From contig OZ024936.1 of the NCBI GenBank assembly GCA_964017235.1, positions 51,015,028-51,079,027 on the forward strand: 64,000 nt of DNA, in the 5' to 3' direction. The notes under the pieces were generated by a model. It worked only from the letters and a program-made list of their open reading frames with translations. It was not told the DNA's origin and made no database searches. Position numbers and translations under genes: made by a program. Positions 16,061 through 60,684 of the stretch are shown piece by piece; positions within the stretch are counted from its first letter, which is position 1, and each line of letters starts with the position of its first letter. Origin of the DNA: Sabellastarte sp. h YS-2021. Taxonomy: Eukaryota > Annelida > Polychaeta > Sabellida > Sabellidae.

Positions 16061-16061
16061 A

Positions 16062-35850: not shown

Positions 35851-38395
35851 CCTCCTCTCCTCCATCATCCCCCACTGGGAACATATGTGGGTGAGTGTCC
35901 CCCACTGCGTACATGACACAGATCCTCCTCTCCTCTCCCATCCCCCACTGGGGACATGTGTCACTGAGCGTCCCCCACTGCGTACATGGCTGAGATCTTC
36001 CTCTCTTCCACCATCCCCCACTGGGAACATGTGTCAGTGAGTGTCCCCCACCGCATACATGGCAGAGATCCTCCTCTCCTCCACCATCCTCCACTGGGGA
36101 CATGTGTCACTGAGCATCTCCCACTGCGTACATGGCTGAGCTCCTCCTCTCCTCCACCATTCCCCACTGGGGACATGTGTCACTGAGCGTCCCCCACTGC
36201 GTACATAGCTGAGATCCTCCTCTCCTCCACCATCCCCCACTGGGAACATATGTGAGTGAGTGTCCCCCACTGCATACATGGCAGAGATCCTCCTCTCCTC
36301 TCCCACCCCCCACTGGAGACGTGTGTCACTGAGCGTCCCCCACTGCGTACATGCCAGAGCTCCTCCTCTCCTCCATCATCCCCCACTGGGAACATATGTG
36401 GGTGAGTGTCCCCCACTGCGTACATGACACAGATCCTTGTCTCCTCTCCCATCCCCCACTGGGGACATGTGTCACTGAGCGTCCCCCACTGCGTACATGG
36501 CTGAGATCCTCCTCTCCTCCACCATCTCCCACTGAGGACATGTGTCACTGAGCGTCCCCCACTGTGTACATGGCTGAGATCCTCCTCTCCTCCACCATCC
36601 CCCACTGGGAACATATGTCAGTGAGTGTCCCCCACTGCGTACATGGCAGAGATCCTCCTCTCCTCTCCCATCCCCCACTGGAGACGTGTGTCACTGAACG
36701 TCCCCCACTGCGTACATGCCAGAGCTCCTCCTCTCCTCCACCATCTCCCACTGGGGATATGTGTCACTGAGCGTCCCCCACTGCATACATGGCTGAGATC
36801 CTCCTCTCCTCCACCATTCCCCACTGGGGACATGTGTCACTGAGCGTCCCCCACTGCGTACATGCCAGAGAACCCCCTCCCCTCTCCCATCCCCCACTGG
36901 AGACATGTGTCACTGAGTGTCCCCCACTGCATACATGCCAGAGCTCCTCCTCTCCTCCACCATCCCCCACTGGGGACATATGTGAATGAGTGTCCCCCAC
37001 TGCGTACATGACACAGATCCTCCTCCCCTCTCCCATTCCACACTGGGGACATGTGTCACTGAGTGTTTCCCCACTGTGTACATGGCATAGATTCTCCTCT
37101 CCTCCCTCAACTTCCACTGGGGACATGTGTCAATGAGTGTCTCCCACTATGTATATAGCTGAGATCTTCCAATCCTCCCCCATCTCCCACTTCGGGCATG
37201 TCTGACCGAGTGTCCCCCTCTGTATACATGGCTTGGATCCTCCTCTTCTCCCCAATCCCCTACTAGGGACATGTGTCACTGAGTGGCCCCCACTGTGTAC
37301 ATGGCTGAGATCCTCCTCTCCTCCTCCATCCTCCACTGGGGACATGTGTCAATGACTGTCCCCAACTGCATACATTGCGAAGATCCTCCTCTCCTCCTCC
37401 ATCCCCCACTGGGGAGATGTGTCACTGAGTGTTTCCCTACTGTGTACATGGCACAGATTCTCCTCTACTCCCTCAACTTCCACTGGGGACATGTCTGACT
37501 GAATGTCTCCCACTATGTATATAGCTGAGATCTTCCTATCCTCCCCCATCTCCCACTTGGGACATGTCTGACTGAGTGTCCCCCTCTGCATACATGGCTT
37601 AGACCCTCCTCTTCTCCCCAATCCCCTACTAGGGACATGTGTCACTGAGTGGCCCCCACTGCGTACATGGCACAGAACCTCCTCTCATCCCCGTTTCCCA
37701 CTAGAGACATGGCTGAGATCCTACTCTCCTCCCTCTCCCCAACCAGGGACATGTCACACTGAGCTTCCCCTACTTCATACATGCTAGAGATCCTCTTCTC
37801 CTCTGGCATCCCCCACTGAGGACAGGTGTCAGTGAGTGTTCCCCCATTGCATACATGGCAGAAATCCTCCCACCCTTCCCCATCCCCCACTAGGGACATG
37901 TGTCACTCAGCATCCCCCACTGCGTACATGGCACAAATCCTCCTCTCCTCATCCACCCCCACTGGGAACATGTGTTAGTGTCTGTCCTACAGTGGATACA
38001 TGCCACAGATTCTCTTCTCCTCTCCATCCCCGACTGGGACATGTGTCAGTGAATGTCCCCCTCTGAGTACATCGCTGAGATCCTCCTCTATTCCACCCTT
38101 CCCACTAGGGATATGTGTCCCTTAGCATCCTTCAGTGTGTACATGGCACAGATCCTCCTCTCCTCTCCCCCCACTGGAGACATGTGTCACTGAGCATCTG
38201 CCACTGCATATATGGTTGAGATCCTCCTCTCCTCCCTCCATCCCCACTAAGGACTTGAATCAGTGAGCATCTCCCACTGCGTACATGGCTGACATCCTCC
38301 TGTCCTCCACCATTCCCACTGGGGACATGTATCAGTGAGCATCCCTCACTGCATACATAGTTGATAGAGATTTTTCTCCCAGTTCCCATTTTAGG
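35851..38395. repeat. 73-bp minisatellite array
   Basis: About 35 units contain CCCCCACTGCGTACATGGC, GAGATCCTCCTCTCCTCCAC and GGGGACATGTGTCACTGAGC. Repeat landmarks step by exactly 73 bp from 36034 to about 37126 and become degenerate after about 37140. 73 is not a multiple of three and the unit lacks stops on the minus strand over long stretches, so overlapping minus and plus ORFs up to 144 codons appear. They repeat the same peptide in shifted frames and are artefacts. Inverted copies lie at 41931-42165 and at 42300-42347. Confidence 0.95.
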
Positions 38396-38399
38396 TATA

Positions 38400-38803
38400 A
38401 CCTAACTGGAAAATACCAGTTAGCTAACCAGAATATTCCAGTTAACTTACTTGAATATACCAGTGAACTAACTTGAATGAATGAGTTAATAACTGGAATA
38501 TACAAGTTAGCTACCTGGTATAGTCCAGTTAGCTAAATTGTTTATTCCAGTTTGCTAGCTAGAATATTCAAGTTAGCTTACTCATATATTTAAGTTAACT
38601 AACACATATATTCAAGCTAGTAAACTCATAAATTCAAGTTAGTTAATTGTTATATTAGAGTTATTAACTTGTATATTCCAGTTACTAACTCGAATATTTT
38701 GGTTACTAACTTGTATATTCTAGCTACTAACTCAGGTATTCCAGTTAGCTAAATAGTATATCAGCATATTCCAGTCTGTTAACCGGTATAGTAAAGTTTG
38801 TAA
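38400..38803. repeat. CCAGTTAGCTAACT-type degenerate tandem repeat, left part
   Basis: Short units of about 20-25 bp combine CCAGTTAGCTAAC, GGTATATTCAAGTTAG and related words. The array stops exactly at the Helitron-like 3' end at 38804 and resumes at about 40446, so the Helitron-like element interrupts it. Confidence 0.8.
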
Positions 38804-38834
38804 CTAGACCAAGGACGCATCTGTGGCCAGATGC

Positions 38835-39600
38835 CAAATGTATCCACCGACAAAGGCAAAAGTAGCTATTACTCAGCTATGCCACGAGCTAGAGGTCTGA
38901 AATTTTAATATGTTATAGCTGACCCAAAAGTAGGTGAATAACATATTTGCACCAAATTCTCTAAATGCAATAATTTTCAAGTTACAAGTGATTTTACTCA
39001 TGATGGAAGTTAGTGAAAAGTCCAAAAGTAGCTATTACTCACTTAGCTTTTGACATAGACACCCAAGTTACTCACCATGTTGTTGCTATGGAAAAAGTAG
39101 GTGAATAACATATTTTAACAAAATGCTCTAAATGCAATACTTTTCAAGTTATAAATGATTTAGTGTTGAGTAAGAACTTCAAAGTAGCTATTACTCAGCT
39201 ATGCAATGAGCCACAGGTCTGGAAATTTACTATGTTATAGCTGCCTCAAAATAGGTGAATAACATATTGAAACTAAATAATCTAAATGCAACAGTTTTCA
39301 AGTTATAAGTGATTTACCCAACAGTGATAACCTTTAGATATAATAATACTTTAGAGATAATTAGCATTTACTCATTTTGAGTAGGTGAATAATTAGCTAT
39401 GGGTCTGAAACTTCACCAAGCGAAAGCTCTCCCAAAAGTAGGTGAATGAGTTATTTGAGAGAAATTGGCTATCTGCAATACTTTTAGAGATAATTCACAT
39501 TTACTCATTTTGAGTAGGTGAGTAATTACCTACGGGTCTGGAACTTCTCCATGTGAAAGCTCTCCCAAACGTAGGTGAATTCATATTGCAACCGAATACT
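38835..39600 (-). repeat. Satellite D block (155-bp family), inverted
   Basis: Contains AGTAGCTATTACTCAGCTAT, AATATGTTATAGCTGACCC and AAAAGTAGGTGAATAACATA, the reverse complement of the array at 61750-64000. Later units diverge. Confidence 0.85.
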
Positions 39601-40440
39601 CCTGTACTACCCTGTAGGTAAAAAATTCACTCGAAAAGTCTCTATTTCTTACAGTTTTCGAGATATTTGCACTTTTTGTATTTTGTAAAAAAACGGTCAA
39701 AGAAACACCCACAGCGGCCATCTTGTTTTTGTCCAGATATCCAGAAAAATTCCCAAGGAAGCTTTGACCATGATGAACATATCCTACAAATTTGGAAAGT
39801 GTACATTGCATGCCCTTAGATATACTGGGGCAGCAAAAGTCCCTAAAAATTTTAATGAAACAGCCGTGGCAGCCATCCTGTTTTTGGAAACGAGGCCAAA
39901 AAAACTCGGAGGCAAGCTTTTGTACCATTGAACCTATCCTGGAAATTTGAGGCCTCTACTGCTAATACTTTTGGCTGCAGAGGGGTAACGAGAAATCATC
40001 TACACACTGCGGCGGCGGCGGCGTACCCCCGCGAAAACCATAGTATCCACCGGATACAAACTACTGATACAACAAGACCACTGTTGCGGTATGTATCTCC
40101 CGCTGAGCATTACAGGGGAAGAAATACCTTTTCCGAGATATTCAGACTTTTTCATTTTCCACTAAAATGCAAGATGGCCGCCAAAAGTGGTGAAAATTGA
40201 AATGTTTTCCCCTTGCGTAGGATACCCTTGTACTACCCTGTGGGTCAAAAATTTGCTCGAAATTGCTCTATCTCTTACGGTTTGTGAGATATTGGTGATT
40301 TTTTACATTTTCACTAAAAGTAGCAATAAAATTGCCATTACTCACTTGTACATTGAACAACAGTTGTGAAACTTAAGTATGTTACAGTTCACAAAAAGTA
40401 GATGAACAGCATATTTGAGAGAAATTTTTTAGCTGCAATA
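39600..40440. repeat. Satellite C-type units and GC-rich insert
   Basis: Recurrent AAGATGGCCGCCAAAAGTGG, CTACCCTGTGGGTCAAAAAT and CTTACGGTTTGTGAGATATT match the array at 24598-25650. The patch at 39990-40120 holds a GGC run and GTATCCACCGGATAC. Confidence 0.7.
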
Positions 40441-40445
40441 CTTTT

Positions 40446-40705
40446 TGTATATTCCAGTTACTAACTGATCCAATCCAGTAAGCCAAATGGTACATTCATC
40501 TTAGTAACTTGTATATTTTCAGTTAGCTTACTGGTATACTCAAGTTAATAACTCATTGATTCCAGTTAGCATACTGGTATATTCAACTTAGTAGCTTGTA
40601 TATTCAAGTTAGCTAACTCATGTATTCCAGTTAGCATACTGGTATCTTCAATTAAGGTATTAACTTGTATATTCAAGTTAGTAACTGGTATATTCCATAT
40701 GGCTA
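40446..40705. repeat. CCAGTTAGCTAACT-type degenerate tandem repeat, right part
   Basis: Continuation of the array at 38400-38803 with GGTATATTCAAGTTAG and CCAGTTAGCATACTGG units. Confidence 0.8.
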
Positions 40706-40711
40706 TCTGCT

Positions 40712-40905
40712 ACTATGGCCTAGTGGATAACACACTCACCTAGGGACACATAGGATTTCTGTTCAAACACAGGCTCAGGCAGATATATAGTGGATCAGAT
40801 GACCACCTAAATTGGCAGTTTTCTGTCATTGTCTCCTATCCCTAGTGGCAGGCTAAAGAACCTCAAGGACATTGATAAATGGTCATCCCTGAGCTTCTGT
40901 CTTTT
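40712..40905 (+). mobile_element. tRNA-derived SINE, family S1 (5' part)
   Basis: It starts ACTATGGCCTAGTGGATAAC and has AGGCAGATATATAGTGG and ATTGTCTCCTATCCCTAGTG. It is truncated in its 3' third, where satellite A follows. Confidence 0.65.
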
Positions 40906-40919
40906 CAACCTACTAATTA

Positions 40920-41870
40920 AGATATGGCCTGGAAAAGATTTCAAGGGTCACGGTCACTACGGCAAGGTCAGATGTGAAATCAAAATTTACATTATGACCT
41001 TACACACCTACACCCTCTAACCAATTTCCCAACCAAGTATCAACTTCTTATGCTGTACAGTTTCTGAGATATAACCCAGACAACATTTTAACAGTCAAGG
41101 TCACTACCAAAAGGTCAAAAGTCAACTCAAGGTCACATCATGACATTGCACACCTACACTCCCTAATTAATGTGCACACCCAAGTATCAACTTCCTACAC
41201 CTCACGGTTTCAGATATATAGTCCAAACAATTTTTTTTCAATCTTACAGCAAGGTCAAAGGTCAAATCATGGTCACACTATGATGCTGCGCACCTATACC
41301 CTCAACCAATGTTCCTACTAGGTATCAACTTTCTACACCCTATGGATTCTGAAATATAGCCCACACAAGATTTTAAAGATCAAGGTCACTACAGCAAAGT
41401 CAAAGGTCAACTCAAGTTCACACCATGATGTTGCACACCTACACCCCTAATTAAGGACCCTACCAAGAAGCAACTTTCTATGTCTTACAGTTTATGAGAT
41501 ATAGCCCGGAAAAGATTTTCAAACTAAAGGTTACTATGGCAAGGTCAAAGGTTAAATCGAGGTCACACTATGATGTTGCACACCTACACTTACACTTTTT
41601 ACCTTGCTGTAATGATCTGGACCTTTAAAATCTTGTCCAACTATATCTAAGAAACTGTAAGGTGTATGAAGTTAATACTTGGTTGCGACATTGGTTGGGG
41701 GTGTAGGTGTGGAAGGTCATGGTGTGACCTTGATTTGTCCTTTGACCTTGCTGTAGTAACCTCGACCTATAACATCTTGTCTTGGCTACGTCTCAGGAAC
41801 CACAACTTGTAGGAATTTGGTTAGAAGGTGTAGGTGTGCAACCTTGATTGACCTTTGACCTTCTCATAGG
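40920..41870. repeat. Satellite A block with internal head-to-head inversion
   Basis: From 40920 to about 41595 the units read CAAGGTCAAAGGTCAAATC. From about 41600 to 41870 they read GGTGTGACCTTGATTTG, the opposite strand. The copies are old, with many substitutions. Confidence 0.8.
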
Positions 41871-41930
41871 GAATTTGTCCTTATGGGCATCTCTAAGGCT
41901 ATTTTTAGGATACTGTGCAGAAATGAAAAA

Positions 41931-42165
41931 CCTTGGGAGGAGGAGGATTCCAGTAATGTATGCAGTGAAGGATGCTTAATATTACATATCCTTAGTGGGT
42001 GATGTTAGAGTAGAGGAGGATCTCTGCCATGTATGCAGTGGGGGACGTTCAGTGACACATGTCCCCAGTGGGGGGTGGTGGAGGAGAGGAGGATCTCAGC
42101 TATGTAGGCAGTGGGGGACGCTCAGTGACACATGTCCCCAGTGGGGGATGGGAGAGGAGAGGGGC
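41931..42165. repeat. 73-bp minisatellite, inverted remnant
   Basis: About three units in the opposite orientation to 35851-38395, with GCAGTGGGGGACGCTCAGTG and ACACATGTCCCCAGTGGGGG. It ends GGAGAGGGGCCC near 42162. Confidence 0.9.
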
Positions 42166-42319
42166 CCAAATCCGTTACTATCTTTTCTGAATGCATATTA
42201 GTTTGTGTTCCATAATGTTACACTCGTATTGTGTGATAAATAAAAGCTAACATTTCAGTGATCTATTTTTTCTCTTCAAATAATGATTTCTCTTTGAGGC
42301 ATCTCCCATTACGGACATA

Positions 42320-42347
42320 ACGTAGTGGGGGACGTCCCCCACTACGT
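42320..42347. repeat. Perfect 28-bp palindrome of minisatellite half-units
   Basis: The left half is ACGTAGTGGGGGAC and the right half GTCCCCCACTACGT. It is a head-to-head junction of two minisatellite starts with GACGTC at the centre, 90 bp upstream of the CCDC43 start codon. Confidence 0.95.
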
Positions 42348-42436
42348 ACATACCATCCACCATTGCGCGCACTCACTTCAGCGCCGAGGATGCCCCTCTG
42401 TGGCTATTCAGGTTATCGGACTTACAACGTACCAAG
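42348..42436 (+). promoter_or_regulatory. CCDC43 core promoter / 5' UTR
   Basis: A CpG-bearing segment (GCGCGC, GCGCCG) directly precedes the start codon. The start codon lies within CAAGATGGCGGCGAC, a match to the YY1 element AANATGGCGGC. That element often overlaps the start of housekeeping genes (established). No TATA box was seen. The exact transcription start is inferred only. Confidence 0.5.
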
Positions 42437-42613
42437 ATGGCGGCGACCATGGATGTGACAAGTTTTGACAGTTGGCTATCAAAAAAACTGTTGAAGATGA
42501 ATAAAGACACTGATTTAGAAATTTTTGTGCAATACATTACAAGCATATTAGAAACGGAAACCGATCCACAGGAGCAAAATGAATCCTTAATGGATTTTCT
42601 TGGACAAATAGCT
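42437..42613 (+). CDS. CCDC43: CCDC43 exon 1
   Basis: ATG in the CAAGATGGCGGC context, 59 codons, ending ATAGCT|GTCAGT (phase 0). GTCAGT is a slightly unusual but acceptable donor. Joining to GAGGAC gives QIA-EDNL, which fits the family alignment. Confidence 0.88.
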
Positions 42614-45600
42614 GTCAGTATTTTAAAAATATTGTAACATCGCCCAGCAGCCTATCCGGTGTCGTGGGAAGTTTGTACTGTACTGCTTCCCTGCATAAGT
42701 TGGCCGCGGGTCGTTAGTTGGCCACCATCATCATATTTTGAAATTTCTATAATTCTAAAGGCCTGTATCATTCTTGAATGGTTTATTATAATAAGATTTA
42801 TTATAACTACAGTACCACTTTTAAAACCTGTGCAACCACACATTTGTCTGTTTGATACATTTAAATGAGTGGTGGCCAACTTACGACCCGCGGCCAACTT
42901 ATGCAGGGAAGCAGTATCTTCGGGAAATAAGTTCCTACAAAATGAAATTGACCCATGGATAAAAATTATTCCTATGTTTTATTGTTCTAAGATGATTGTT
43001 TAAGAATTATGTCGTGACATAAAATATAGTATGAGAAGATACAAGATCACATAATAGATCAGACGTGGGTACCTCAGCTTTACTTTACTTGTGTGTAGAG
43101 CCGTGGAACGACCCCACATAAAACTGGAGATTTGCATAAAGCACAAATATCATATAAATGTGTACACATAACTCTTCCCAGAACTATTTTGTTACATTTT
43201 CTTCAACAATCAGTCAACATGCAAACATGTTTGACAAAAAATAAATGACATTTCCTGAATGTTCAGGTTTTTTAGACTATTTCTCCAAAAATTTGAAAAT
43301 GTTCTTTTATTATGAAAGCTGTGTAAAATAGCATATATTTTGTACACATATTGTATTTGTTGTGTCACTGGCGTAATATCAACTGTTTATAATTATATTA
43401 ACACTGTGGCTTCAGAACAGTCACTGACGGATCGGAAAACAATCCCTTTCAGAACTGCCAATGGAAATGGTTCACAAATTATTTGCTTTAAGACCCGTTT
43501 TAAACAAAAATGTCTTTACTCTTCATATATTTTATAAGTATACGTTCATTCAAAATAAATAAATAAGTTTAATGCAAGGTTCAAAAATCCCAATTTCGTG
43601 AAATAATATATGAATTTTGAAAGAAAATGAAATAAGCAAATGAAACCCAATAAAATATGGTTGTCATTGGCAATGCTCAGGATTTTCGGTAAAAATATGT
43701 ATATTTCACACTGGGGCCTCAGAACGTTGATATATTGTAATTGTCATATTTTTATGAATCTATTTTCGACAGCATGCTTTAATTCAACTGCCACACATCA
43801 AATAGTTATAATATGAACGTGACAGTTCTGAAATTAAAAGAATTGTGACCCGTCCTTGTCGGTTCCGAAGACACTCTGTTATATTAAACCATTTTCATAC
43901 AAAAAAAATTTTATGCAACTCCCCAGTTCTATGTGGGGTCGTGCCACAGCTCTACACGTAAGTAAAGTAATAGATATTTATTTTACATATTTTGATTTCA
44001 TATATATATATATGTGACAGAACCCGTCACTACTACTGGCTTGGCTAGTAGGGATTTCCCTTGTAGCTGACCTGGTAGATTGTGGGCCTCGAGTGAGGTG
44101 GTGTGGGTTCGAGTCCCCTGGATAACCTGGTCCTGTGACATTTGGCACTATATAAGGGACTGGCTAGTGTGGTTGAATTAACCACACAGTGGATAGCCAG
44201 TGGTGCTGGTTAATGTAAACCAGTAGGAACCCTGGGCCAGGTTTCATGTGTGGAGCGGAGAATGTGACAGAACCCCAAAAGTGATAAAAAACACTACTAC
44301 TGGCTTAGCTAATAGGGATTTCCCTTATAGCTCACCTGGTAGAGTGTGGGCCTTGTGTGTGAGAGGTTGTGGGTTCGAATTCCCTGGAGACCTGATCCTG
44401 TGACATTTGGCACCCAATAAGAGACTGGCTATTGTGGTTGGATTAACCACCCAGTGGATAGCCAGTGGTGCTTGTTAATATGAACCAGTCGGAACCCTGG
44501 GACAGGTTTCATGTGTGGAGGGGAGAATGTGACAAAACCCAAATGTGATAAAATCACTATTACTTGCTTGGCTAGTAGGGATTTCCCGTATAGCTCACCT
44601 GGTAGAGTGACATATAGTATATAGTATCTGATATATAGTATCTTGTATATAGTATTGTATGTCAGTTGTACTAATAATCATGCTACTTAATAAAAAATAT
44701 CAATAAAGTATGTGATAAAACAAGTTTACATTAAGTTCTGCACAGCTATAAAATACTTCAGGCATTATTTATGCTGAATTATGAAGAAAATATCCATTAA
44801 AATGCTAAAAAATATTTGCTGCATTCATTTAATTTTGAATGTCAAAGGTTATATGTCACAGGGTTACTGACCCAATTTTCATGCTATCTGTTGGTTATTT
44901 CTGAACTCTATGCAATAAACTTTCCAATGGTGTTTTAATTGTAAAAATTGGTTATGCATTGAGAGATTTACAAGCAATTAAAGATTACCAAAATTTTACA
45001 TTGGATGGATAAAAATTTATTGGCAAACAAACTATTGCATGAACCCAAAATAAGGACTAAAAGAGTTTGACAAGTGATATCCAAGTACCTAATTCAACTA
45101 CAGAAATGAAAAAATGTATCATTTTAAAGAAAAATAACAGTTTTTATTTGAAGAAATTTTGTTTTATATTGGCTCAGATATTGTCAAATATGCTGCAAAA
45201 GTAGGTCAAAACATCTGAAAAAAACACGGTCGAAACGCCCGGTGGGTCGAAACATCTTGATACCTTTCAGCTGATAACATTATCATTTCTGTGCATGTGC
45301 AATAGCATAGAAATGGATGATAAGAACAAATTTTATGGGACACAGTGTTCCCCCATGAAATAAGGTTGTCAAAATTGAAACTAAACCACTGACTGAGTTA
45401 AATTACTCTTGTTTTTAAAGATTGAATTATAATGTACAAATGTCAATAACTTACAACAATATACTGAATATTTTGCCTGAATATTGGTGTTTTCGGCTTA
45501 TAATAGAACCATTTCTGTGCATGTGCAACAGTGTAGAAACAGGTAAAAGGAACAAATTACATGGGATCTTAATTTAACAGGACACTGGAGTTGTAATATA

Positions 45601-48600
45601 TTAATTTTATATTAATGTCCTTATTTAATATACAGTGGTGCATGGAGTTAGGTGATGACAGCCAAATATTAATAAATATTCTGCCTTCTGGTTTGTGCAG
45701 AGGCAGATTCCGGATTTTCTGAAGGGGAGGTGTTTATTGTCAGGGATAGGGGAGGGAGTATGTCATTTTCGACAATTCATGTCCAAACATTTTGTAAAGA
45801 AGTGATTGCCATTATTGAGAAAATTTAAAATGTAGTATGTCCAAACATTTTGTAAAGAAGTGATTGCCATTATTGAGAAAATTTAAAATGTAGTATTTTT
45901 TTATATTATTTAGAGGTTGGTATATAAATATTCCCTTCTTAGCAGCAGTTACATAAAAATGTAAAGTCATTGACGCGTCCTTTTTACAAAAGTGAAGATT
46001 TCCAGAAAATTGGAGATTTATAGTTTCTGTGAAAAGGATATGTCCTTTTTGCAAAAGTGAGATTTGTAGTTACTGTGAAAAGGATGCGTCCTGTTTACAA
46101 AAGTGAAGTTTTACCGTGTCTATCAAAATGACACATTCTTTTCAGACACGTCCTTTTTACAAAATTGAAGATTTGCAGTTTTTCTGAAAAGGACGCGTCC
46201 TTTTTACAAAAGTGAAGATTTGCAGTGTTTGTGAAAAGGACGCGTCCTTTTTACAAAAGTGAAGATTTGCAGTTTTTGTGAAAAGGACGCGTCCTTTTTA
46301 GAAAAGTGAAGATTTGCAGTTTCTGTGAAAAGGACGCGTCCTTTTTAGAAAAGTGAAGATTTGCAGTTTCTGTGAAAAGGACCCGTCCTTTTTAGAAAAG
46401 TGAAGATTTGCAGTTTCTGTGAAAAGGACGCGTCCTTGTTAGAAAAGTGAAGATTTGCAGTTTCTGAAAAGGATGCGTCCTTTTTAGAAAAGTGAAGATT
46501 TGCAGTTTCTGTGAAAAGGACGCGTCCTTTTTACAAAATTGAAGATTTCCAGAAAATTGGAGATTTATAGTTTCTGTGAAAAGGATATGTCCTTTTTGCA
46601 AAAGTGAGATTTGTAGTTACTGTGAAAAGGATGCGTCCTTTTTACAAAAGTGAAGTTTTACCATGTCTATCAAAATGACACATTCTTTTCAGAAAAGTTA
46701 AGATTTGCAGTTTCTGTGAAAAGGACGCATCCTTTTTAGAAAAGCAAAGATTTGCAGTTTTTGTGAAAAGGACGCATCCTTTCTAGAAAGGTTGTTTTTC
46801 TATATTGGACAATTTCTTGGCTTTCAAATGCTGATATTTACATTTTTGGTCATGAAAAGTCCAGTTTTCAAACATGTTTTTCATTGTTTTGCAGCAAAAG
46901 TGCCAAAACCTGCTTATTTTAGGCCTAAAAAGGAAAGCGTCACTTTTCCTTTTTACCCCACACCCCTTAAGGGCTGTCGGGGTATTGTTTTCACCCATGG
47001 TGTCCGGATGGGCGGGCGGGTGGGCGGGCTGCGGGAAATAGTTTGTCCGGGCTGTATCTCAGAAACCGTAAGGTGTAGGAAGTTGATACTTGGTAGGGAC
47101 ATTGGTTAGGGGGTGTAGGTGTGCAACGTCATGGTCTGACCTTGATTTGACCTTTGACCTTTCCGTAGTGACCTTGAGTTTGAAAATCTTGTCCGGGCTA
47201 TATCTCGGAAATTGTAAGGTGTAGGAAGTTGATACTTGGTAGGGACATTGGTTAGGGGGTGTAGTTGTGCATCGTCATAGTCTGACCTTGATTTGACCTT
47301 TGACCTTGCCATAGTGACCTTGACCTATAAAATCTTGTCCGGGCTATATCTCGGAAACCGTAAGGTGTAGGAAGTTTATACGTGGTGGGGATATTGGTTA
47401 AGAGGTGTAGGTGTGCAACGTCATGGTCTGACCTTGATTTGACCTTTGACCTTGCTGTAGTGACCTTGACCTATAAAATGTTGTCCGGGCTATATCTCGG
47501 AAAGTGTAAGGTGTGGGAAGTTAATATTTGGTAGGGACATTGGTTAGGGGGTGTAGGTGTGCAACGTCATGGTGTGACCTTGATTTGACCTTTGACCTTG
47601 CCGTAGTGACCTTGACCTATAAAATCTTGTCCGGGCTATATCTCAGAAACCGTAAGGTGTAGGAAGTTGATATTTGGTAGGGACATTGGTTAGGGGATGT
47701 AGGTGTGCAACGTCATGGTGTGACCTTGATTTGACCTTTGACCTTGCTGTAGTGACCTTGACCTATAAAATGTTGTCCGGGCTATATCTCGGAAAGTGTA
47801 AGGTGTGGGAAGTTGATATTTGGTAGAGACATTGGTTAGGGGATGTAGGTGTGCAACGTCATGGTGTGACCTTGATTTGACCTTTGACCTTGCCGTAGTG
47901 ACCTTGACCTATAAAATCTTGTCCGGGCTATATCTCGGAAACTGTAAGGTGTAGGAAGTTGATATTTGGTAGGGACATTTGTTAGGAGGTGTAGGTGTGC
48001 AACGTCATGGTCTGACCTTGATTTGACCTTTGTCCTTGCCATAGTGACCTTGACCTATAAAATCTTGTCCGGGCTATATCTCGGAAACCATAAGGTGTAG
48101 GAAGTTGATATTTGGTAAGGACATTGGTTAGGCTGTGTAGGTGTGCAACGTCATAGTCTGACCAGGATTTGACCTTTGACCTTGCCGTTGTGACCTTGAC
48201 CTATAAAATCTTGTCCGGGCTATATCTCGGAAACTGCAAGGTGTAGGAAGTTGATATTTGGTAGAGACATTGGTTAGGGGGTGTAGGTGTGCAGCATCAT
48301 GGTGTGACCTTGATTTGACCTTTGACCTTGCCATAGTGACCTTGACCTATAAAATCTTGTCAGGGCTATATCTCGGAAACCGTAAGGTGTAGGAAGTTGA
48401 TACTTGGTAGGGACGTTGTTTAGGGGCTATAGGTGTGTATTATCATGGTCTGACCTTAATTTGACCTTTTACCTTGTCGTAGTGACCTTGACCTTTAAAA
48501 TCTTCATGGACCTTTGGGTCTGTCTTTTGATGCAGATTAAGCAAAAGTCATATTAGAATTTATTAAGAATTTTACTTTCATAACTTCCCATTGTAAGAGA

Positions 48601-51002: not shown

Positions 51003-51053
51003 AGTATATAATGGGATCGATTAAATGTGAAAAGAACTAAACTAAAACTCTGT

Positions 51054-51499
51054 TATACCCCTTTCACACAATAGGCGGTATTCTGCACGGTTATAGGCAT
51101 TGGACGAAATGCCTCTGTCCTTCAGCTAACATCCGAGGTGAGTATGGCACCCTGTGACACATTGGCGAAACCTCCCATTACCTTGCGCTTCCCATGGTTG
51201 TTTTCAAAAGTTTAAAATTTCCGACTCTGATTTTGCACCGTAAGTATGCGTAGATGATTCCGCGCATGAATTTCTTATTACGATACCCGAAGGTGTGGAC
51301 CACAGGATACATAAGGTTGTGATTTGGTGGTCTTTCGGTGTAATACAGCGACATAAGGTGAGTTGAGATATTGGAAATTTTGCCACTATTCCACAAGCTC
51401 GCATACGAATCTTGGACACCATATGCCTATAACCACAAATTACACCACTTCTAGTGTGAGCAGCTCGGACAGAATGGGACCTGTAGTGTGAAAGGGGCA
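51054..51499. mobile_element. MITE with TATACCCCTTTCACAC termini, copy 1
   Basis: It starts TATACCCCTTTCACACAA and ends GTGTGAAAGGGGCA, 446 bp. It begins 51 bp after the CCDC43 stop, so it probably lies in the 3' UTR or just beyond. It interrupts a run of ACTAAACTAAAACTCT words that resumes after 51530. Copy 2 is at 54386-54890. ORFs across it are not conserved between copies. Confidence 0.8.
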
Positions 51500-51529
51500 T
51501 TGTTTTTAAAAAAGATGTAGAAAAAAGGG

Positions 51530-51730
51530 GAGAATTGATTTTTTTGTGAAAACAAGTAAATTAAAACTCTAGGTCAAATGAAAAGATAAAGAACAGGGTT
51601 GAATTGAACATATGTGAAAAAACTAAACTAAAACTCTAGATCAAATCTGTTAATTGTGAAAAAGAGATAGAAAACAGAGTGGAATTGATCATATGTGAAA
51701 AAAAGTAAACTAAAACTGGGTTAAATCTTT
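51530..51730. repeat. Irregular tandem repeat downstream of CCDC43
   Basis: GAATTGATCATATGTGAAAA and ACTAAACTAAAACTCTAG recur three times (51530-51730). One more copy is on the other side of the MITE (51015-51050). Confidence 0.75.
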
Positions 51731-52512
51731 TATTTATAAAAAAATATACCTGTATGAAAATTTGGGTAATGAGGCTCATTCATGAATATAACTTGACTTA
51801 AAATCTGGGTGGAATCAGTCATGTGAAATGGACATAAACTGAAATTCTGGGCACTTGATGATTTGAGTAGTATGAAGATTCCGGAGGATAAATATACCAT
51901 AGTCATTTGTGTAAATAATTTAACTATAAGTATGGGTGAATTTACGGTGAAAAGAGTCATATGTGTCAAAATCATCAGTCAAAATATGAGCAAATAGTAA
52001 CTCATTTGAAGTAATTTCAGACAAGAACTTTTCAGTAAATAGCGATAAATGGAGTAGAACTCACAAACATATTTTTAAACAAATCTGACAGTCCAGGAAT
52101 TACAAGAAAATAACTTGCACCTAAAATGTTAGTTATTTATGAAAGTGAAAGTTGTGACTACTTGTTCAATTTATTTGGTACAATATCAAGGATATCAGCA
52201 AAGAAATTCCTTGAATGTATACAGTATTATGTAAAAATATTGATGTTAACAATAGGAATAATCAAGGATATTTGATTCTTCATCTTTGACAAAAGTACAC
52301 AGTCTTCAGTATAGTTTTACAAATTTTTCTGTGCTCAGAGAGTCATTGGGGAGAAAATGATATTTGGTGTGTGGTGCTATGTTGAATTATATTTTTAAAA
52401 GCATTATTTTACTTAATCAAAGCCGCTGTTAATTAATTGTATTATTAACAGAAGCTTTGGTATTAAACATGTTACAAATTATCTATTGACCGTAAAAATG
52501 CAGATTTTGCAC
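51731..52512. other. AT-rich intergenic stretch, nothing recognised
   Basis: No exon or repeat recognised. Confidence 0.5.
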
Positions 52513-52520
52513 ATACTAGT

Positions 52521-53176
52521 TAGTGCTGTCACTTGCTGGTGCAAATTAACATCGAATATCGCCCACGTTGGCCGACCGAGTACCGACATATGTCGACTTC
52601 ATAAACTCACCTCAAAACGAAACTATTTAATTAATATGTAAAATAATATATTTTTCTCACCTGAATACATCATTTTAGGGTCATATTTGTCTTTTTATTT
52701 CGGTTGTTTATGCATTGTCAAACGTAGGAACACTTTGAAAACCGTCAGTATATTAAAACAATTATCTAATTCCGACTTTATAAAGTGCTGCGTAATGCAA
52801 TTATAATATCATATACGCCTCAAATAAATAGAAGTACAGTGTTTTTAAAGATTATTTGAAAGCTTTACGTCACTTAAATTGACTTACCAAGTGTGAAAAA
52901 AAAATAAAGATTCAATTCCGAAAATTACATTCGAGCAATGGTTTAATGCTTTCCTGATAGGTCATGTGACTGGATTTGTACGGACTGTGATGTCAAAGGT
53001 CCGAAAATATATTTTAAAATGCTGAATAATCCTTCACTTTTAAAAGATATTCTATCTTTATTATATAAATATGCTAATATATTTGCAATCGGATTTGAAA
53101 AAATGCATCCGATTATCGCTCATAATGAACCTAGCAAATGATAGTATCGGAAGTAGCGAGTGTCGCGACAGCACTA
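52521..53176. mobile_element. hAT MITE with 8-bp target duplication
   Basis: ATACTAGT at 52513-52520 is repeated at 53177-53184. The element starts TAGTGCTGTCAC and ends GCGACAGCACTA. It is 656 bp with no transposase ORF. Confidence 0.88.
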
Positions 53177-53184
53177 ATACTAGT

Positions 53185-53650
53185 ACATCCATCAGAATTC
53201 GAAGGATTCAGATTAGTTATGCACATTGCATACTTTTCCACATTTGTTTAAACAAGTCAAATTTTTATATTTTCCCTTACAGTTGTTCTTTCAGTTTCCT
53301 TCACCATGTTTTTCTAATTATACTTTTTATCTCTGCCAAGGAGGTGTTATATTCATGACCATGTATTGAAAAAAATGCGAAAATAGGTCTTGCTTCAACT
53401 TAGATCTCATTAAATATTTAGACTGCTCCAGATCACCATCTGAATACAAAAATATACTTTCCATTTTCTTATTATTACGTGCCTTGGCAGGGGTTTGCAC
53501 TCTGTGAGTGCTCTTGTTTGTGCTGTACTGGGGGTGTGTTATTTGAGTTATTTAATGTCAGTTTATTGGGCTTCCATATTTTATTGTTATGCAGTTATGT
53601 TGTAAAGTTGAATCCCTTCAGTGGAAATCCCTATTAGGCAGAGGTAATAC
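53185..53650. other. Intergenic stretch, nothing recognised
   Basis: No repeat family or exon recognised. Confidence 0.5.
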
Positions 53651-54122
53651 CTGGGGCCAATTTCACAAAAGGACTTAAGCCCAGACCTAGACTTAAATTT
53701 AAGACTTTGCTCTTAAATTTTGTCAACAGATTAGTAAGTCTGTGATCTTAGACTTAGCGGATTTCACAAAGCAGCTAAGGTCATATAATTGCTAAATCAG
53801 GGGACCTAACTTTAAGTCTGGTAAATAGTGGGCTTAAATTTTGTAAAGAGGACTTAAATATGACCTCCATAAACATTTCTCCACTTAAAAATTTGAAATG
53901 GCTTTAAATAAATAATTATACAGAACACCTCACTAAAGTAGTCTTTGTTAATAGATATAAAATGTTACATGACACAGAAAACCACTGCGGTTATTTGGTA
54001 AGCTTGCCTTTGTGAAATCCATTAAAGTCCCAGACCTAGGTAAGACCAAAGTGTTAGATTTAAGTCCCTGACTTAGCCATAAACTTGGCTAAGACTCAGA
54101 CCCGTTGTGCAACTAGAACCAG
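53651..54122. mobile_element. Probable MITE, CTGGGGCCAATTTCACAAAA end
   Basis: The left end is CTGGGGCCAATTTCACAAAA. The right end, inverted, is CTGGTTCTAGTTGCACAACG. Internal inverted words include GATTTCACAAAGCAGC / GCTTGCCTTTGTGAAATC. Many TTTAAGTC/GACTTAAA words occur. Boundaries are approximate. Confidence 0.5.
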
Positions 54123-54266
54123 TTCTGTAAAGGGATTGTCTAGTTGATATTTAATCTTGTTTTCTGGAATTCCTGGCAAACCATTACTAGCTTTTGTTCC
54201 ATCACAATTTGACTTAACAGTATGTAAACAATATTATATGATCTAAATAAAATTTTGTGAGTTATA

Positions 54267-54989
54267 GAAGTAAGAAATATAAAATTCACCACAGTATGTG
54301 AAATTCACCAGTGAAGAAACCCCGCTTCAATTTCCTTGATTTTGTCAGAAGTGTTTTACATATTCGTGATTTTGTATGGGTACATTATACCCCTTTCAGA
54401 CAACACAGTATAACCTGCGATTATAAGTGTTAGACAAAATGCCAGTCCTTCAACTACCTTCAGACGTCCATATGCGAACTTTTGACACAATGGCCCGCCG
54501 TCTCATTCCTTGTCAGCCCTACCACTGCCCCTTTATACGTGCGTCTCTGTCCCTGTGTGTCTATTTCAGTCACCTTCCACAGATAAATTTTTCATACGGT
54601 AACTGAAGGCGTTGTCTGCGGTTTATATAAGGTTGTGACTCATTGTGTTTCGGTAGTGTGTGTATTGAAGGCGAGTTGAGGTTAATGGAGGTTGTCTCTC
54701 GGTGACCAGCATTTATAGTACTATCGTCCTACTATTATTGACGTTTATCAACCATGTCCAATCAGTGGATGTATGACTCATACTTCACACCACAAATCTC
54801 GGAAGATATGAGGCGTTCTAGGAGGCGGTTCCGCCATCGAGTAAAACCTCCAACCATGGGGTGTCCCACCTGTAGTGTGAAAAGGGTATAAGGCCTTTGA
54901 TATCGTTTATCTTATTTTGTTTTACTAACAAAGAAAGCCCATCAGTGGCAAATTTTACACACTGTGGCAAATTTCAAATTTTTTTACTC
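54267..54989. mobile_element. Family-G MITE, copy 8, interrupted by another MITE
   Basis: TA|GAAGTAAGAAATATAAAATTC starts it and AAATTTTTTTACTC|TA ends it. Duplicated AAATTCACCA words are at the left and GGCAAATTT words at the right. Removing the 505-bp nested element leaves about 218 bp, the expected length. It is more diverged than the other copies. Confidence 0.65.
54386..54890. mobile_element. MITE with TATACCCCTTTCA termini, copy 2 (nested)
   Basis: It starts TATACCCCTTTCAGACAA and ends GTGTGAAAAGGGTATA, 505 bp. It shares interior words with 51054-51499 (GACAAAATGCC / GACGAAATGCC, AAGGTTGTGA, GGCGAGTTGAGGT). It sits inside a family-G MITE. Confidence 0.75.
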
Positions 54990-55177
54990 TATATCTTCCA
55001 TGTTTACTGTAAAAGTATTATCTTTTTCTGTCAAACGTAGAAGAACTGAAGGTATTAATTCTGTTTGTTTGATCCATCAAATATATGCATTTTTTTTGTT
55101 CAATGTTCATTATATATTCTTGTACATGTATATTAATTCATACCATAGCAATTTTGTTATATTGTGGGTGTGAAATA

Positions 55178-55575
55178 TTCTAACATGACACGGCTGTGTC
55201 CGCGATTCTGATTGGTCGAGAGCTATGGTAAAACCTCGATATACGTGGTGACTGTTCCATTGTCATCCCACCGCAAGTAACAATGGTAATCGTAACATGC
55301 TTCCAGTTTTTGACAGTTAAGGAACAGAACTTATTATTATTCATAAAAGCACTTTTAATTGAATATAATTCTGATAATGAAAAGAAAATATATAGAACCT
55401 AAAAAATGTGAAAAAAAACCTCTTTATTTTCGGCGTATTTAGTGAGAAAATGCTACTGCCACAATGTACAATTGGTAGAACAGCCTGATTTGTTTCGAAC
55501 GTTTGTGAAATGGGCATGATTTTTTGCAAAATATAAGGAAATTACAAGTATTTTAATTGCTTTGTCATGTTAGAA
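55178..55575. mobile_element. MITE with TTCTAACATGACA termini, copy 2
   Basis: TTCTAACATGACACGGC at the left and TGTCATGTTAGAA at the right, 398 bp. A GATTCTGATTGG word near the left end matches the inner edge of copy 1 at 8590-8605. Confidence 0.6.
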
Positions 55576-55578
55576 TAG

Positions 55579-55735
55579 GATTAACGCCCTCCAAACCATG
55601 GTATATGCAGAATTTTACCATGGTTTGAGGCAATAAACCCCTCAGGCTTTGCCTTCGGGATTTATAATCTCAAACCATGGTAAAATTCTGCATATACCAT
55701 GGTTTGTCAGGCGTTATTCCTATAACAATCACTAT
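55579..55735. repeat. Nested foldback hairpin, ~60-bp arms
   Basis: The left arm has TTAACGCC, CAAACCATGGTATATGCAGA and ATTTTACCATGGTTTGAG. The right arm mirrors it with CTCAAACCATGGTAAAAT, TCTGCATATACCATGGTTTG and GGCGTTATTCCT. Each arm is itself a smaller palindrome (CAAACCATGGTA / TACCATGGTTTG). It abuts the MITE at 55178-55575, as the hairpin at 8211 abuts copy 1. Confidence 0.88.
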
Positions 55736-56224
55736 TTTTTACCTAGGAATTTTAGATTTTTGAAGATGTAACATTGAAATTATAGCTATTTACAAGTAAC
55801 CTTTCTATTATAATTGGTATCACTAGTGAAATAAAAGAAATATGAGGAATCTTTAAATTTGAATTTGTGAGAGACATAAAAATGATTGACAGTGTTACTG
55901 TACAAGTGAAGTGGTTGTGTTTCAGCCCATTTTGTTTACATTGTCCATTTTATAATAGAGTGAATCACCATTAAATATGTACAGTTAGCATTAATTTTTT
56001 TGTAAGATTTTCGATTAATACAAAATATTCAACCTGAAGAGTTCAATCTGTGCTTTTGTAAACAGACATATTCAGCATATAAAAGAGTTACACATTATGT
56101 TTTATGTCAGCTCAACAACTCACTGAATCAGATATATTGTCGTGTTGAAATTACTGTTGGCATCAATTTGATTTATCTGATTAAACTACGGACATAGAGA
56201 AGTGCTGCTTATTTTGCTTGAGAA
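55736..56224. other. AT-rich intergenic stretch, nothing recognised
   Basis: No repeat or exon recognised. Confidence 0.5.
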
Positions 56225-56400
56225 CATCAATTTTCATTACCCCCCAGCCTTTAAATGCTGTAGAAATGGTGTTTTCTGGTTGGGCAGGCAGTCCAGCGGG
56301 TGGTTGGTTGGAAAAATATCTTGTCAGGGCAGTATCTCAGAAACCATGAGGTATAAGAACTTTGTAATTAAGAAGCCCGTCAGGGGCGCTTATTTGTTTT
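56225..56400 (+). mobile_element. Short satellite-A type element (tail, partial unit, terminal hairpin)
   Basis: TACCCCCCAGCCTTTAAATG and GGTGTTTTCTGGTTGGGC resemble the tail module at 46955. A partial satellite A unit follows (AGTATCTCAGAAACCATGAG). The element ends with AAGCCCGTCAGGGGCGCTTA, a near-palindrome like the end at 26006-26023. Confidence 0.5.
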
Positions 56401-56869
56401 CATGTACGTTCGACTGATCACCGCCGCCGGCGGATTATGGTCTCCCATGAATAACTTCTTGGGCTTTCAAATTTTTCTTTCCTTCTTATCTTTCTTTAAA
56501 ACTATAGGGGCGGGAAAAATTTTTGGGATACTTTCAGGAGATCTTAAGCTTTACTTAAGGTAACCTTAAGCATTTTTCAAAAACACCCCGTCATCGCGTT
56601 TCGGAAAAAAACACACACACCTGTGCTATAAAATTTATCACGTACATTGTAGACCAAATTTCGCAGGTCGGAAAGGATTTTCTCATCAATCGGACCATAG
56701 ACGCGTGAATGGGAGGCGTTTGATTTTCGTAAATTTTTTTAAAATGGGTACTTTGTATCTTAAAAACAGTCAGGATTTTGGCGTTTTGTTGGAATAACTT
56801 ATTCAGCTACTTTTTGATAATCTTTCACATGCCCTGTATCTGCAATCTGAAGGTCACCTTAATGTCAAA
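56401..56869. other. Unassigned stretch upstream of satellite F
   Basis: A GCCGCCGGCGG palindrome lies near 56421 and TTAAGCTTTACTTAAGGTAA near 56544. It may be the head of the element carrying satellite F. Confidence 0.35.
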
Positions 56870-57960
56870 AAGGGGGTTTTAACCCTCCAGTTCACTTAGT
56901 TTTCCACTTTTTTCAACCATACATGGCATATATATTAAGATTTACCAAAGGATTATCTTGAATTTATGGTGACCTTAAACTGTTAATATTATTGGAGCCA
57001 TGGCCCCCCTAAAGTCATAAATTTGGAATAAAACTGTCTGGCTGCTTTATGTTTACATTTTTTTTTTCAAATCTAACATATATTGATGTTGAGGTAGACC
57101 AAAAGACGACTCTTACTACCGAATAACTTAAATATTAATAATGTTATGGCCATCTTAAATTTAAAATATAGGGGTTTTCAGCCCTAAGTTCAGTTAATGT
57201 TTAAATTTTTAAAATAAAACCTGCCAGAAGGGACATTCTGATTTTATGGTCCCCTTACAGTCCCAATATGAATGAAGTTATGGTCTCCTTACAGTGAAAA
57301 AATGAAGTTTTCAGCCTACAGCTATCTTATTGGTCAACTGACCTCAGCTAAACTTTGTACACTTATAAATAATGACAAAAAGGACATTCTTATTTTGTGG
57401 TCACCTTAAAGTCCAGTATTAATGAACTTCACCTTGCAGTGAAATTATGGAGTTTTTCATCTCCAGCTATCATATTGTTCAGCTCACCTCAGTTATATTT
57501 TGCACACTTATTAAAGATGACAATAGGGACATTCTTATTTTCTTTCCACCTTGGAGTTCCAATATAGGTACAGTCATGGCCATCTTGAAGTAAAAATGAG
57601 GGTTTTCAGCTGCCAACTGACTTACTGTTCAATAATATCAGTTTAACTTAACACATTGATTAAGCTTAAGGAAGATTTTTATGACCTTTTTACTTAAAAT
57701 TCTTGTATTTAATAGACTTTGGCCATCTTAACATTATAAATATATAGTTCTTGCTCCCACCCCATTTATTTTAAGACTTCTTTAAACCACACCTGCCACA
57801 TGTATACTTAAAACAAAATTTCTGTTATCTGGCAAAGCTAAGCTCCTACAGTTTATGAAGTTATGGCATCTTAAAAAAATGAGGTATTTAGCATGCACTG
57901 ATGTGGTTATTAATATATTGCAGCTGATCAATGTTTATATAATATAAATTCCCAATTTTA
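56870..57960. repeat. Satellite F, degenerate (~148-bp)
   Basis: GGGACATTCTTATTTT recurs at 57231, 57382 and 57527 (151 and 145 bp). TATGGCCATCTTAAA, GAGGGTTTTCAGC and ACACTTATTAAAGATGAC lie at matching offsets. Older units extend to both sides. The family is not seen elsewhere in the window. Confidence 0.75.
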
Positions 57961-58149
57961 GGCACCTTTAAAAAAATCCCACATTCTTCTGATTCCATTC
58001 TTGTTGAATTGTGTGGATATGCCTTTTCCTTTTTGGGGGAGAAAAAGGGTTTATTTAATTCAGCCTTTGTTTTGCAGCAGGAGTTTTTGATCTAGCTACT
58101 TTTTCACATAGACTATTTAAATTGGTCCAATGTATAGACTTGACTTCTT

Positions 58150-58926
58150 TCAGAAAGAAATTATTTATTGGTCCTAGAGGTTTGGGATGGTAAACCAACC
58201 TATAGGAAATCATGGGCTGGGAATCTTTTGGTGTGGTCAGATTTGACCCCTCCTTCAAGGTCAAACGAGCATAGCCAAACTTAAAAGTGCTTATAACTCG
58301 CTTATTATTGGTCCTAGAGGTTTGGTATGGTAAACCACCCTATAGGAAATCATGGGCTGAGAATCTTTTGGTGTGGTCAGATTTGACCTTGTACCCCTCC
58401 TTCAAGGTTAAGCGAGGAGAGCCAAACTTAAAGTGCTTATAACTCGCTTATTATTGGTCCTAGAGGTTTGGGATGGTAAACCAACCTGTAGGAAATCATG
58501 GGCTGAGAATATTTTAGTGGTCGGATTTGACCTTGGGCGCCTCCTTGAAGGTCAAACAAGGATATCCAACCTAAAAGTGCTTAAAACTTGCTTATTATTT
58601 GTCCTAGAGGTTTGCAAAGTGACACCAACCTATAGGAAATCATAGGCTAGGAATTTTTGATGTGCTCAGATTTGACCTTGGGGCCTCTCCTTCAAGGTCA
58701 AACGAGGATACCCAAACTTAGAAGTGCTGATAACTTGCTTATTATTGGTCCTAGAGGTTTGCAATATGAAACCAACTTATAGGAGGTCATGGGCTGGGAA
58801 TCTTCTGATGTTTTCAGATTTGACCTTGGGCCCCTCCTTCAAGGTCAAACAATGGTTCACTGGCTTTAGTGAGTTGTCTTTTCGGTGGATACAAATTTGC
58901 ATTGGTTCTTCGATGCGTAGGTCTGG
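58150..58926 (+). mobile_element. Helitron-like element with satellite B and intact 3' end
   Basis: Five ~146-bp units contain GGTCCTAGAGGTTTGGGATG, TAGGAAATCATGGGCTG and TCCTTCAAGGTCAAACGAG. The tail is CGGTGGATACAAATTTGC with hairpin GCATTGG-TTCT-TCGATGC (58899-58916), then CTGG (58923-58926) and T. The tail matches 421-464. The 5' boundary is not resolved and could reach into the satellite F region. Confidence 0.75.
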
Positions 58927-59034
58927 TTAATTCTGTCATCTTTCTGTTGAATTGTCTTGTCATGATACTTGAGTGTTATTTCTCATATACCTGTGCATAA
59001 CTTACACTGTTATGAAAGGCACTTGATCTTTGTA

Positions 59035-59257
59035 GAGTAAGAAATCTGAAATTCACCACATATCTGAAATTCGCCACATGTTGAAATACTAATAAAATAA
59101 ATGAACTGAGGGGAGATTTGTTGAATGTCTAGTAAATTTGGTATTTTGAACTGAAAAATACCAATTTTAAGGCAAAATATCATTTTCTTCATAAAATTAA
59201 CTAAGGTTTTAGAGGTGGCAAATTTTAGATTCCTGGCGAATTTTAGATGTCTTACTC
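59035..59257 (+). mobile_element. 225-bp TA-flanked MITE (family G), copy 7
   Basis: TA|GAGTAAGAAATC starts it and GATGTCTTACTC|TA ends it, 223 bp, same orientation as copies 2, 3 and 6. Confidence 0.85.
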
Positions 59258-59526
59258 TACTGTTTCATCTATTCTAGATCTCATGGTGTCCAACACTATT
59301 TCCCCAGGCTGTGAGTCATGGGATCTCTGATGCTATTTTTAAATTTTTAAACATGTTTTTATTTTATGTCTTTAAAAACATTTTTAGACGATATTGTAAC
59401 TTACAATATATATGTTGATATGTTGACATGTTAAGGTAATGGTGAAAAGTAACCGTTGTTATGTCATCTATATCTCCCTCATTTTCATGTGTTTTTTTTT
59501 TGAGTAAAATATACAGCACTTTTGAG

Positions 59527-60000: not shown

Positions 60001-60684
60001 ATGGCAGGTGAACACACTTTGCAGAGCCAAAGTTAAAGGTCACACCATGATGATGCACACCTACACCCCCTAACCAATGTCCCTACCAAGTGTCAATCTT
60101 ATACACCTTGCAAAATCGAAGAAATAGCCCAGACAAGATTTTAAAACTCATGGTCACTACGGCAAGGTCAAGTCAAGGTCACACCATGATGTTGTCACAC
60201 CTACAACCCCAAACCAGTGTCCCTACTAAGTATTAACTTCCTATACCTTACGGTTTCTGAGATATAACTCGGATAAGATTTTATAGGTTAAGGTCACTAC
60301 AGCAAGGTTAAAGGTCAAATCAAGGTCACACCATGACGTTGCACACCTACACCTACCAACCAATGTTCCTACCAAGTATTAACTTCCTATGCCTTACATT
60401 TGCCGAGATACAGCCCGGACATAATATTATAGGTCAAAGTCACTACAGTAAGGTCAAAGGTCGAATCAAGGTCACACTGTTGCATACCTACAACCCCCAA
60501 CCAATGTTGCTACCAAGTATCAACTTCTACAGCTTACATTTGCCGAGATATAGCCCAGACAAGATTTTGTAGGTCAAGGTCACTACGGCAAGGTCAAAAC
60601 AAGGTCACACCATAATGTTGCACACCTAGAGCCCCCAACCAATGTCCCTACCAAGTATCGACTTCATACACATTATGATTTTTA
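60000..60684 (+). repeat. Satellite A array of composite element copy 3
   Basis: About 4.5 units with GCACACCTACACCCCCTAAC, TTACGGTTTCTGAGATAT and AAGGTCAAAGGTC words. No tail module follows; the satellite-D element head begins directly. Confidence 0.85.

Follow-up and report, generated by a model that had tools for sequence, protein, structure and literature searches.

Among the described systems, the Cg_HINE elements of the oyster Crassostrea gigas come closest to the repeats considered here, which are located in a window of 64,000 bp of the annelid Sabellastarte sp. h YS-2021 (contig OZ024936.1, positions 51,015,028 to 51,079,027 of assembly GCA_964017235.1). According to their description (PMC7492417), Cg_HINEs consist of a 5' sub-terminal repeat followed by a complementary inverted repeat and a microsatellite, central repeats of mostly 140-180 bp, and a 3' flank of ~60 bp containing a sub-terminal repeat and a palindrome, and they are inserted in T-rich or TT sites without duplication. 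Their group 2 combines related flanks with unrelated repeats, and two elements contain two arrays. The Sabellastarte elements resemble them in all these features and are, judged from their sequence, most probably (about 0.87) non-autonomous rolling-circle transposons of the Helentron/HINE (DINE-1-like) type. They differ in that they come from another genome, in that satellites B and D are found in two families with different ends, and in that family 1 usually ends in CTAG. The likeness considered is that of anatomy.

Further likenesses are based on published descriptions. In DINE-1 and HINE-Mo (PMC4067079) the sub-terminal repeat is a few nucleotides away from the 5' end and at a larger distance from the 3' end, a palindrome is near the 3' end, the centre contains repeats, and TT is preferred, all as in the elements of the window. 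The bivalve pearl elements, DTC84, and MgE also have short arrays of ~160-bp repeats between fixed ends (PMC7492417), and the eight Helitron-N families of C. gigas, which have a start of 53 bp and an end of 42 bp in common, are associated with satellites as well (PMC8268682). The element proto-Helentron-Pi of Phytophthora infestans has the same 5'-TT and 3'-CTAG and is mostly inserted between A and T without duplication, but it is an autonomous element of ~14 kb (PMC4067079), whereas the copies found here with both end modules span 0.87-3.5 kb and have HINE-type sub-terminal repeats.

Paired ends of the family 1 elements

The original prediction had placed three transposon 3' ends in the window, and all three are present, at 421-464 (element 1) and 58883-58926 (element 2) on the plus strand and at 38849-38804 (element 3) on the minus strand. 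Each starts with the sub-terminal repeat CGGTGGATACA (at 421, 58883, and 38849, respectively), continues with a hairpin (436-453, 58899-58916, and 38834-38817), and terminates with CTAG (461-464), CTGG (58923-58926), and CTAG (38807-38804), followed by TT in each case. In these three copies the hairpin is located 6-9 nt before CTRG and 10-13 nt before the element end, where it had been predicted, but its supposed 7-4-7 structure is imperfect in element 2, whose stem contains five Watson-Crick and two wobble pairs. Similarly, the supposed constancy of the 3' end applies to elements 1 and 2, which are nearly alike in their last 44 bp, but not to element 3, whose end is a diverged relative and not strictly the same terminus (74.5% identity to the B-carrying copies over 47 columns, 77% to element 1 over 61 bp). 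Between elements 1 and 3 one stem pair has changed on both sides, from G-C to T-A, which we count in favour of the HINE-type assignment. If families are defined by an identical 11-bp sub-terminal repeat and subfamilies by 80% identity over the last 60 bp, as described in PMC4067079, elements 1 and 3 share the family-level 3' repeat but not the subfamily.

A hairpin in front of CTRRT is by itself within chance expectation. Counting perfect stems with a length of 7 bp or more and 3 or more GC that are located within 35 nt of CTRRT, 2 of the 431 sites in the window have such a hairpin, and 40 dinucleotide shuffles gave 0.725 such sites on average and never more than 3. It is the common sequence of the ends together with the further copies in the genome that is beyond chance, not the hairpin motif itself. 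These copies were found by searching the window's own assembly (1.786 Gb, 647 contigs) with a single query, 58800-58926, which resulted in at least 41 matches with 40 of the 3058 first-look candidates scored. We fetched 38 of the 40 matches outside the window (19 + 19, 4-5 kb each), leaving out two at C7:50163 kb, and added the stretches beyond both window ends (L065 and L066). Because the query contained part of satellite B, the family 1 sample is biased towards B, and the dominance of B is no census. The family 1 counts refer to 39 loci, namely the 38 fetched ones and element 1, and the 41 3' ends comprise one of element 1 and 40 of the 38 fetched loci, as two of these have two ends each. 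Counts in 43 rows (40 loci) include element 1 twice and, in addition, element 2. In the first 19 fetched loci the shared sequence stops in front of T, with GGTCTAG or a close variant as its last bases. The last four bases are CTAG in 37 of the 43 rows, CTAA and CTGG in one each, and others in four, i.e. CTRR is present in 39. The stem is fully Watson-Crick paired in 25 of 44 rows (element 1 twice), contains wobble pairs only in 13 and a mismatch in four, and lies outside the expected frame in two (L072 and L075).

The genome copies also have a 5' end of their own that matches this type of 3' end and consists of TTGTATCCACCG, an inverted repeat, and a GCC-rich stretch. The common 5' module, TTGTATCCACCGGATAGCATCCGGTGGATACTATGG followed by the GCC-rich stretch and GTGTGTAGAGAGATTTCACCG, was found by comparing the upstream sequences (alignments were made with BLAST and MAFFT) and is matched, in some copies partly, in 27 of the 39 loci. 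Among the 24 copies reaching the tip 23 start with TT, one with AT, and none with TC. Their first base is followed by 11 bp that represent the inverse of CGGTGGATACA, with at most one mismatch in 21 of 23 copies (no mismatch in 10, one in 11, two in 1, and four in 1). This 5' repeat, TGTATCCACCG, sits 1 nt inside the 5' end, and CGGTGGATACA starts 44 and ends 33 nt before the 3' end. These distances are close to, although not exactly, those of the HINEs, where the repeats of the mite families have been described at 2-4 nt and ~38-60 bp from the 5' and the 3' end, respectively (PMC4067079). The 5' repeat is followed by the inverted repeat ATCCGGTGGATAC, the GCC-rich stretch, and then the C and B arrays. 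The inverted repeat is deleted in three copies (L052, L054, and L058).

Insertion sites and classification

The predicted insertion between A and T is confirmed on one side and weakened on the other. A T follows 40 of the 41 3' ends (TT 39, TC 1, GT 1), but the base before the 5' end is A in only 17 of 24 copies and T in seven, of which two are the pair L052 and L054. Where T runs are shared, TT and A|TT sites are indistinguishable. Homology past CTRR, which had been named as a test of the ends, continues at the junction in a single group of loci (L052, L054, and L058) among the 43 3' flanks. Besides the locus entered twice, junction similarity of the 24 5' flanks is limited to the same group. 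Empty sites were found for two of the 24 copies with joined flanks, which match without gap at the junction, while for the remaining 22 no match across the junction was obtained in the limited sequence compared. The joined flanks of the L055 copy correspond to an empty paralogous site on the plus strand of the window (57670-57868, 88.5% over 200 columns), and those of L067 match L053 (83%, 94 columns) and the window at 5850-5976 (76%, 127 columns). There is no target-site duplication at the two empty sites.

These characters point to elements of the Helentron/HINE type. The copies have inverted sub-terminal repeats of 11 bp near both ends, a palindrome near the 3' end, an inverted repeat and a short microsatellite after the 5' repeat followed by central tandem repeats of about 150 bp, and a location in TT or T-rich sites without target-site duplication, with A or T before the element in 24 of 24 copies. 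Paired sub-terminal repeats and the inverted repeat with a GCC-rich stretch are described as features of HINEs and not of Helitron1 (PMC4067079, PMC5148889). Several observations, however, weigh against this classification. Twelve of the 39 loci lack the 5' module inside the fetched 4-5 kb, and the 5' module of element 3 is degenerate and preceded by G. The repeat is 1 nt inside the 5' end and not 2-4 nt as in the published mite families (PMC4067079). In addition, the similarity of L052, L054, and L058 extends 77-155 bp beyond CTAG and resumes at a greater distance, which speaks against a clean end in this group. As L052 and L054 have both flanks in common, they look like one duplicated insertion, but the 5' flank of L058 differs and only its 3' flank is shared with the other two. 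Therefore, longer units or 3' read-through are possible, and the three loci may be parts of a longer carrier repeat or may result from replication past the 3' end.

The original prediction regarded the hairpin and CTRR as the established Helitron signature. A canonical Helitron (Helitron1) has a 5' TC, a 3' hairpin and CTRR, and is inserted between A and T. This would account for the hairpins of the three window ends, which lie 6-9 nt in front of CTRG and 10-13 nt from the element end, compared to about 11 nt in Helitron1, for CTRR in 39 of the 43 rows, and for A before 17 of 24 and T after 40 of 41 ends. It is nevertheless very unlikely because neither the 5' TC (TT in 23 of 24, TC in none) nor the invariable A|T insertion (T precedes the element in seven of 24) is found, because the sub-terminal inverted repeats and the inverted repeat with the GCC-rich stretch are foreign to the described Helitron1 elements (PMC4067079, PMC5148889), and because the second family of the window, described below, ends in CTTG and not in CTRR. 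The signature is more probably that of a Helentron/HINE, with its sub-terminal features.

The terminal nucleotides, TT in 23 of 24 copies and CTAG in 37 of 43 rows, together with A|T in 17 of 24, would also suit a proto-Helentron-like family as published (PMC4067079), that is 5'-TT...CTAG-3' with A|T insertion and a Rep/helicase without endonuclease, as proto-Helentron-Pi of Phytophthora. However, terminal nucleotides by themselves are weak evidence, T is found before the element in seven of 24 copies, the sub-terminal repeats and the GCC-rich stretch are HINE-like, and similarly built oyster elements are classed as Helentrons, which leaves this a doubtful alternative. Finally, the arrays and their spacers could have spread by segmental duplication and unequal exchange without any transposition. 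The flanks shared by L052 and L054, the 3' flank of L058, and the highly variable array lengths are what this would predict. But outside these three loci and the locus seen twice there is no similarity at the junctions of the 43 3' and 24 5' flanks, two empty sites exist, and the ends are fixed and carry paired inverted repeats, so that spread without transposition is hardly conceivable.

Satellites in two families with different ends

Different satellites behind one type of 3' end had been predicted and are indeed present, with B in elements 1 and 2 and C, Dp, and D in element 3. The window contains the last part of the B array of element 1 (1-407, plus strand, 147-148 bp units) in front of its 3' module. 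With the sequence beyond the window the element is complete, has its 5' module at L066:4937, and contains 14.3 B units in a total of 2556 bp. Element 2 has a B array of 4.7 units (58165-58850, plus strand) before its 3' module; no 5' module was matched upstream, and the element is probably 5'-truncated. The usual order in family 1 is 5' end-C-B-3' end. In all 39 loci satellite B is located in front of the 3' module, a result favoured by the B-containing query, and satellite C1 is found in 30 of them. Array lengths differ strongly between the copies, and the sequence upstream of B includes 16 D units in L069, 20 Dp units and inverted C-array pieces in L084, and Dp, D, and C1 in L073. In L072 (3230-4085, minus strand) seven B units and then another 3' end come immediately after a family 1 3' end, an arrangement resembling an element inserted at A|TT in the B array of another.

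On the minus strand, element 3 consists of the 5' module, C1, a C-array piece, Dp, D, and the 3' module ending at 38804. The degenerate 5' module (39979-40072, with TTTGTATCCGGTGGATACTATGG and a GCC-rich stretch, starting near 40072) was revealed by alignment with 14 genome copies. Together with C1 it shows 70% identity over 374 columns to the corresponding part of L047. The C1 units (39696-39984) are homologous to C1 behind the 5' module of the B-carrying copies, the Dp units (39345-39580) are relatives of D (73% over 89 bp), and the D units (38858-39333) precede the diverged 3' module (38804-38849), of which a second copy is at L073:1406-1449. There, D and the 3' end recur behind Dp units with 96.4% identity over 530 bp, and the match stops at CTAG, where Dp-like sequence comes next. 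Further upstream L073 has Dp and D, and a family 1 5' module was not seen there. Thus, two loci have D directly before the 3' end of element 3. The CCAGTTAGC array, supposed to support the bounds of this element independently, is present on both sides (38402-38761 and 40447-40690) and adjoins the 3' end, but it gives no support for a 5' end at its other edge. A 5' end at the array edge, 40446, was rejected because the homologous 5' module begins near 40072 and 374 bp of other satellite pieces (40073-40446, minus strand), D-like and C-array-like and of uncertain membership in element 3, are found between it and the array. The array region is flanked by a 72-73-bp satellite (about 25, 9, and 2 units) at 35844-38358 and 41994-42162, in opposite orientation.

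The second family, which is also HINE-like, starts in the window with a 5' module at 61363-61440 (plus strand), which consists of a hairpin with a 13-bp stem, ATGTCAGCTGACT-tgtc-AGTCAGCTGACAT, and a GC-rich stretch. A second copy of this module is found at 60684-60755. The regions 60684-61362 and 61363-61730, each the module and the sequence following it, are apparently a tandem duplicate. A repeat that is also present at 3423-3735 and 40712-40903 interrupts the first of the two copies. The D array starts at 61779 and runs past the window end (64000) to 64889, as seen in the extension L065, which also contains B (64897-65857), a D remnant (65856-65899), and the 3' module (66096-66138), all on the plus strand. 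The 3' end is 2.1 kb past the window and is composed of CAGTCAGCTGACA, a palindrome, and CTCCTCTTG before TT, its terminal bases being CTTG. The 3' ends of the two families do not match at E up to 1, and their 5' modules share one 20-bp opposite-strand match in GC-rich text and nothing else. TTGTATCC at the D-B junction (64890) was considered as a family 1 5' tip and rejected as too weak because satellite D itself reads CTTGTAAC there.

Three further family 2 copies are found beside family 1 copies, in L062, whose extended sequence does not reach the 5' end, L068, and L072. In all four copies the order is D, B, a D remnant, and the 3' end, with D in 20 to at least 28 and B in 5 to 8 units. The D-to-B and B-to-D junctions of the three match those of the window copy at 98.6-100% over 71 bp, and the 3' flanks differ among the four. 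Such near-identical junctions in differently flanked copies indicate that the D-B-D hybrid arose once and was then multiplied. A shorter family-2-like copy, L078, has D between both ends. Satellite B is therefore present in two families with different ends, and D is present in family 2 and in element 3, which means that ends and satellites mix. The modular swap of satellites is supported to this extent, but as a phenomenon it is not new. For C. gigas, double arrays as well as unrelated satellites between related flanks have already been described (PMC7492417), and the same arrays across different elements are also in print (PMC12628747). The difference from the Cg_HINEs is that the same satellites, B and D, are found in two families with different ends, including the D-B-D hybrid.

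Further repeats and the spread of the satellites

Other repeats of the window are less clearly assigned. A ~153-bp satellite array (24593-25639) matches the C-array pieces of element 3. It is followed at 26011-26032 by a perfect 9-bp hairpin, AAGCGTCCC-ttct-GGGACGCTT, with a TTCT loop as in family 1, and a third family may have its 3' end here. A repeat of ~200-230 bp containing ATCTGAAATTCGCCACAT is present in seven copies in both orientations (6658-6886, 6984-7213, 11126-11354, 16060-16289, 23860-24062, 27469-27696, and 59033-59259), which are 85-97% identical in the better orientation and weaker in the opposite one. About two copies of a ~265-bp unit with GGTTCGAATCC at 44028-44609 recall a tRNA-derived SINE, although ARAGORN gave no tRNA. 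In the window as a whole, Rfam gave no matches and ARAGORN no genes, and Pfam found RITA and a piece of a reverse transcriptase in five open reading frames (ORFs) and nothing else. By eye, in the first 60 residues and without a library search, none of the 26 frames of at least 150 codons in the fetched loci resembles a Rep/helicase. In viral contigs the patterns of the hairpin, of satellite B, and of satellite D had no matches. The pattern CGGTGGATACAN{2,5}TGCAT was found in 37 stretches, of which one (L017) has the loose GC.T-N10-A.GC frame behind it, with bases lacking the GGTCTRG end.

At the level of sequence, paired ends, variable centres, clean insertion in two cases, and hybrid junctions kept in four copies are established. 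An autonomous Helentron-like Rep/helicase presumably acts in trans on both ends and copies the elements by rolling circle. As such an enzyme would need the ends alone, the centre would be free to change. New combinations of cargo could arise by insertion into, or recombination with, the satellite array of another element, and those keeping two working ends would spread as units. It could even be imagined, although this is rather improbable, that family 1 is an animal proto-Helentron lineage, which has retained TT...CTAG ends and mostly A|T insertion but already has Helentron sub-terminal repeats, and which pools satellites B, C, and D with at least one HINE family of different ends. Elements inserted in arrays of the other family would then pass satellites between the families, and the resulting fixed hybrids, such as D-B-D, would multiply.

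The general idea has already been published for oysters, and the gain is a clear worked example and not a new principle. The locus, first taken as a Helitron that carries satellites, would probably represent two HINE-type families of the same genome. Within these, satellite exchange becomes concrete, with one satellite in two families and one hybrid array of which both junctions are kept in four copies. The proposed spread of satellites by rolling-circle carriage and recombination would thereby become countable in a large assembly.

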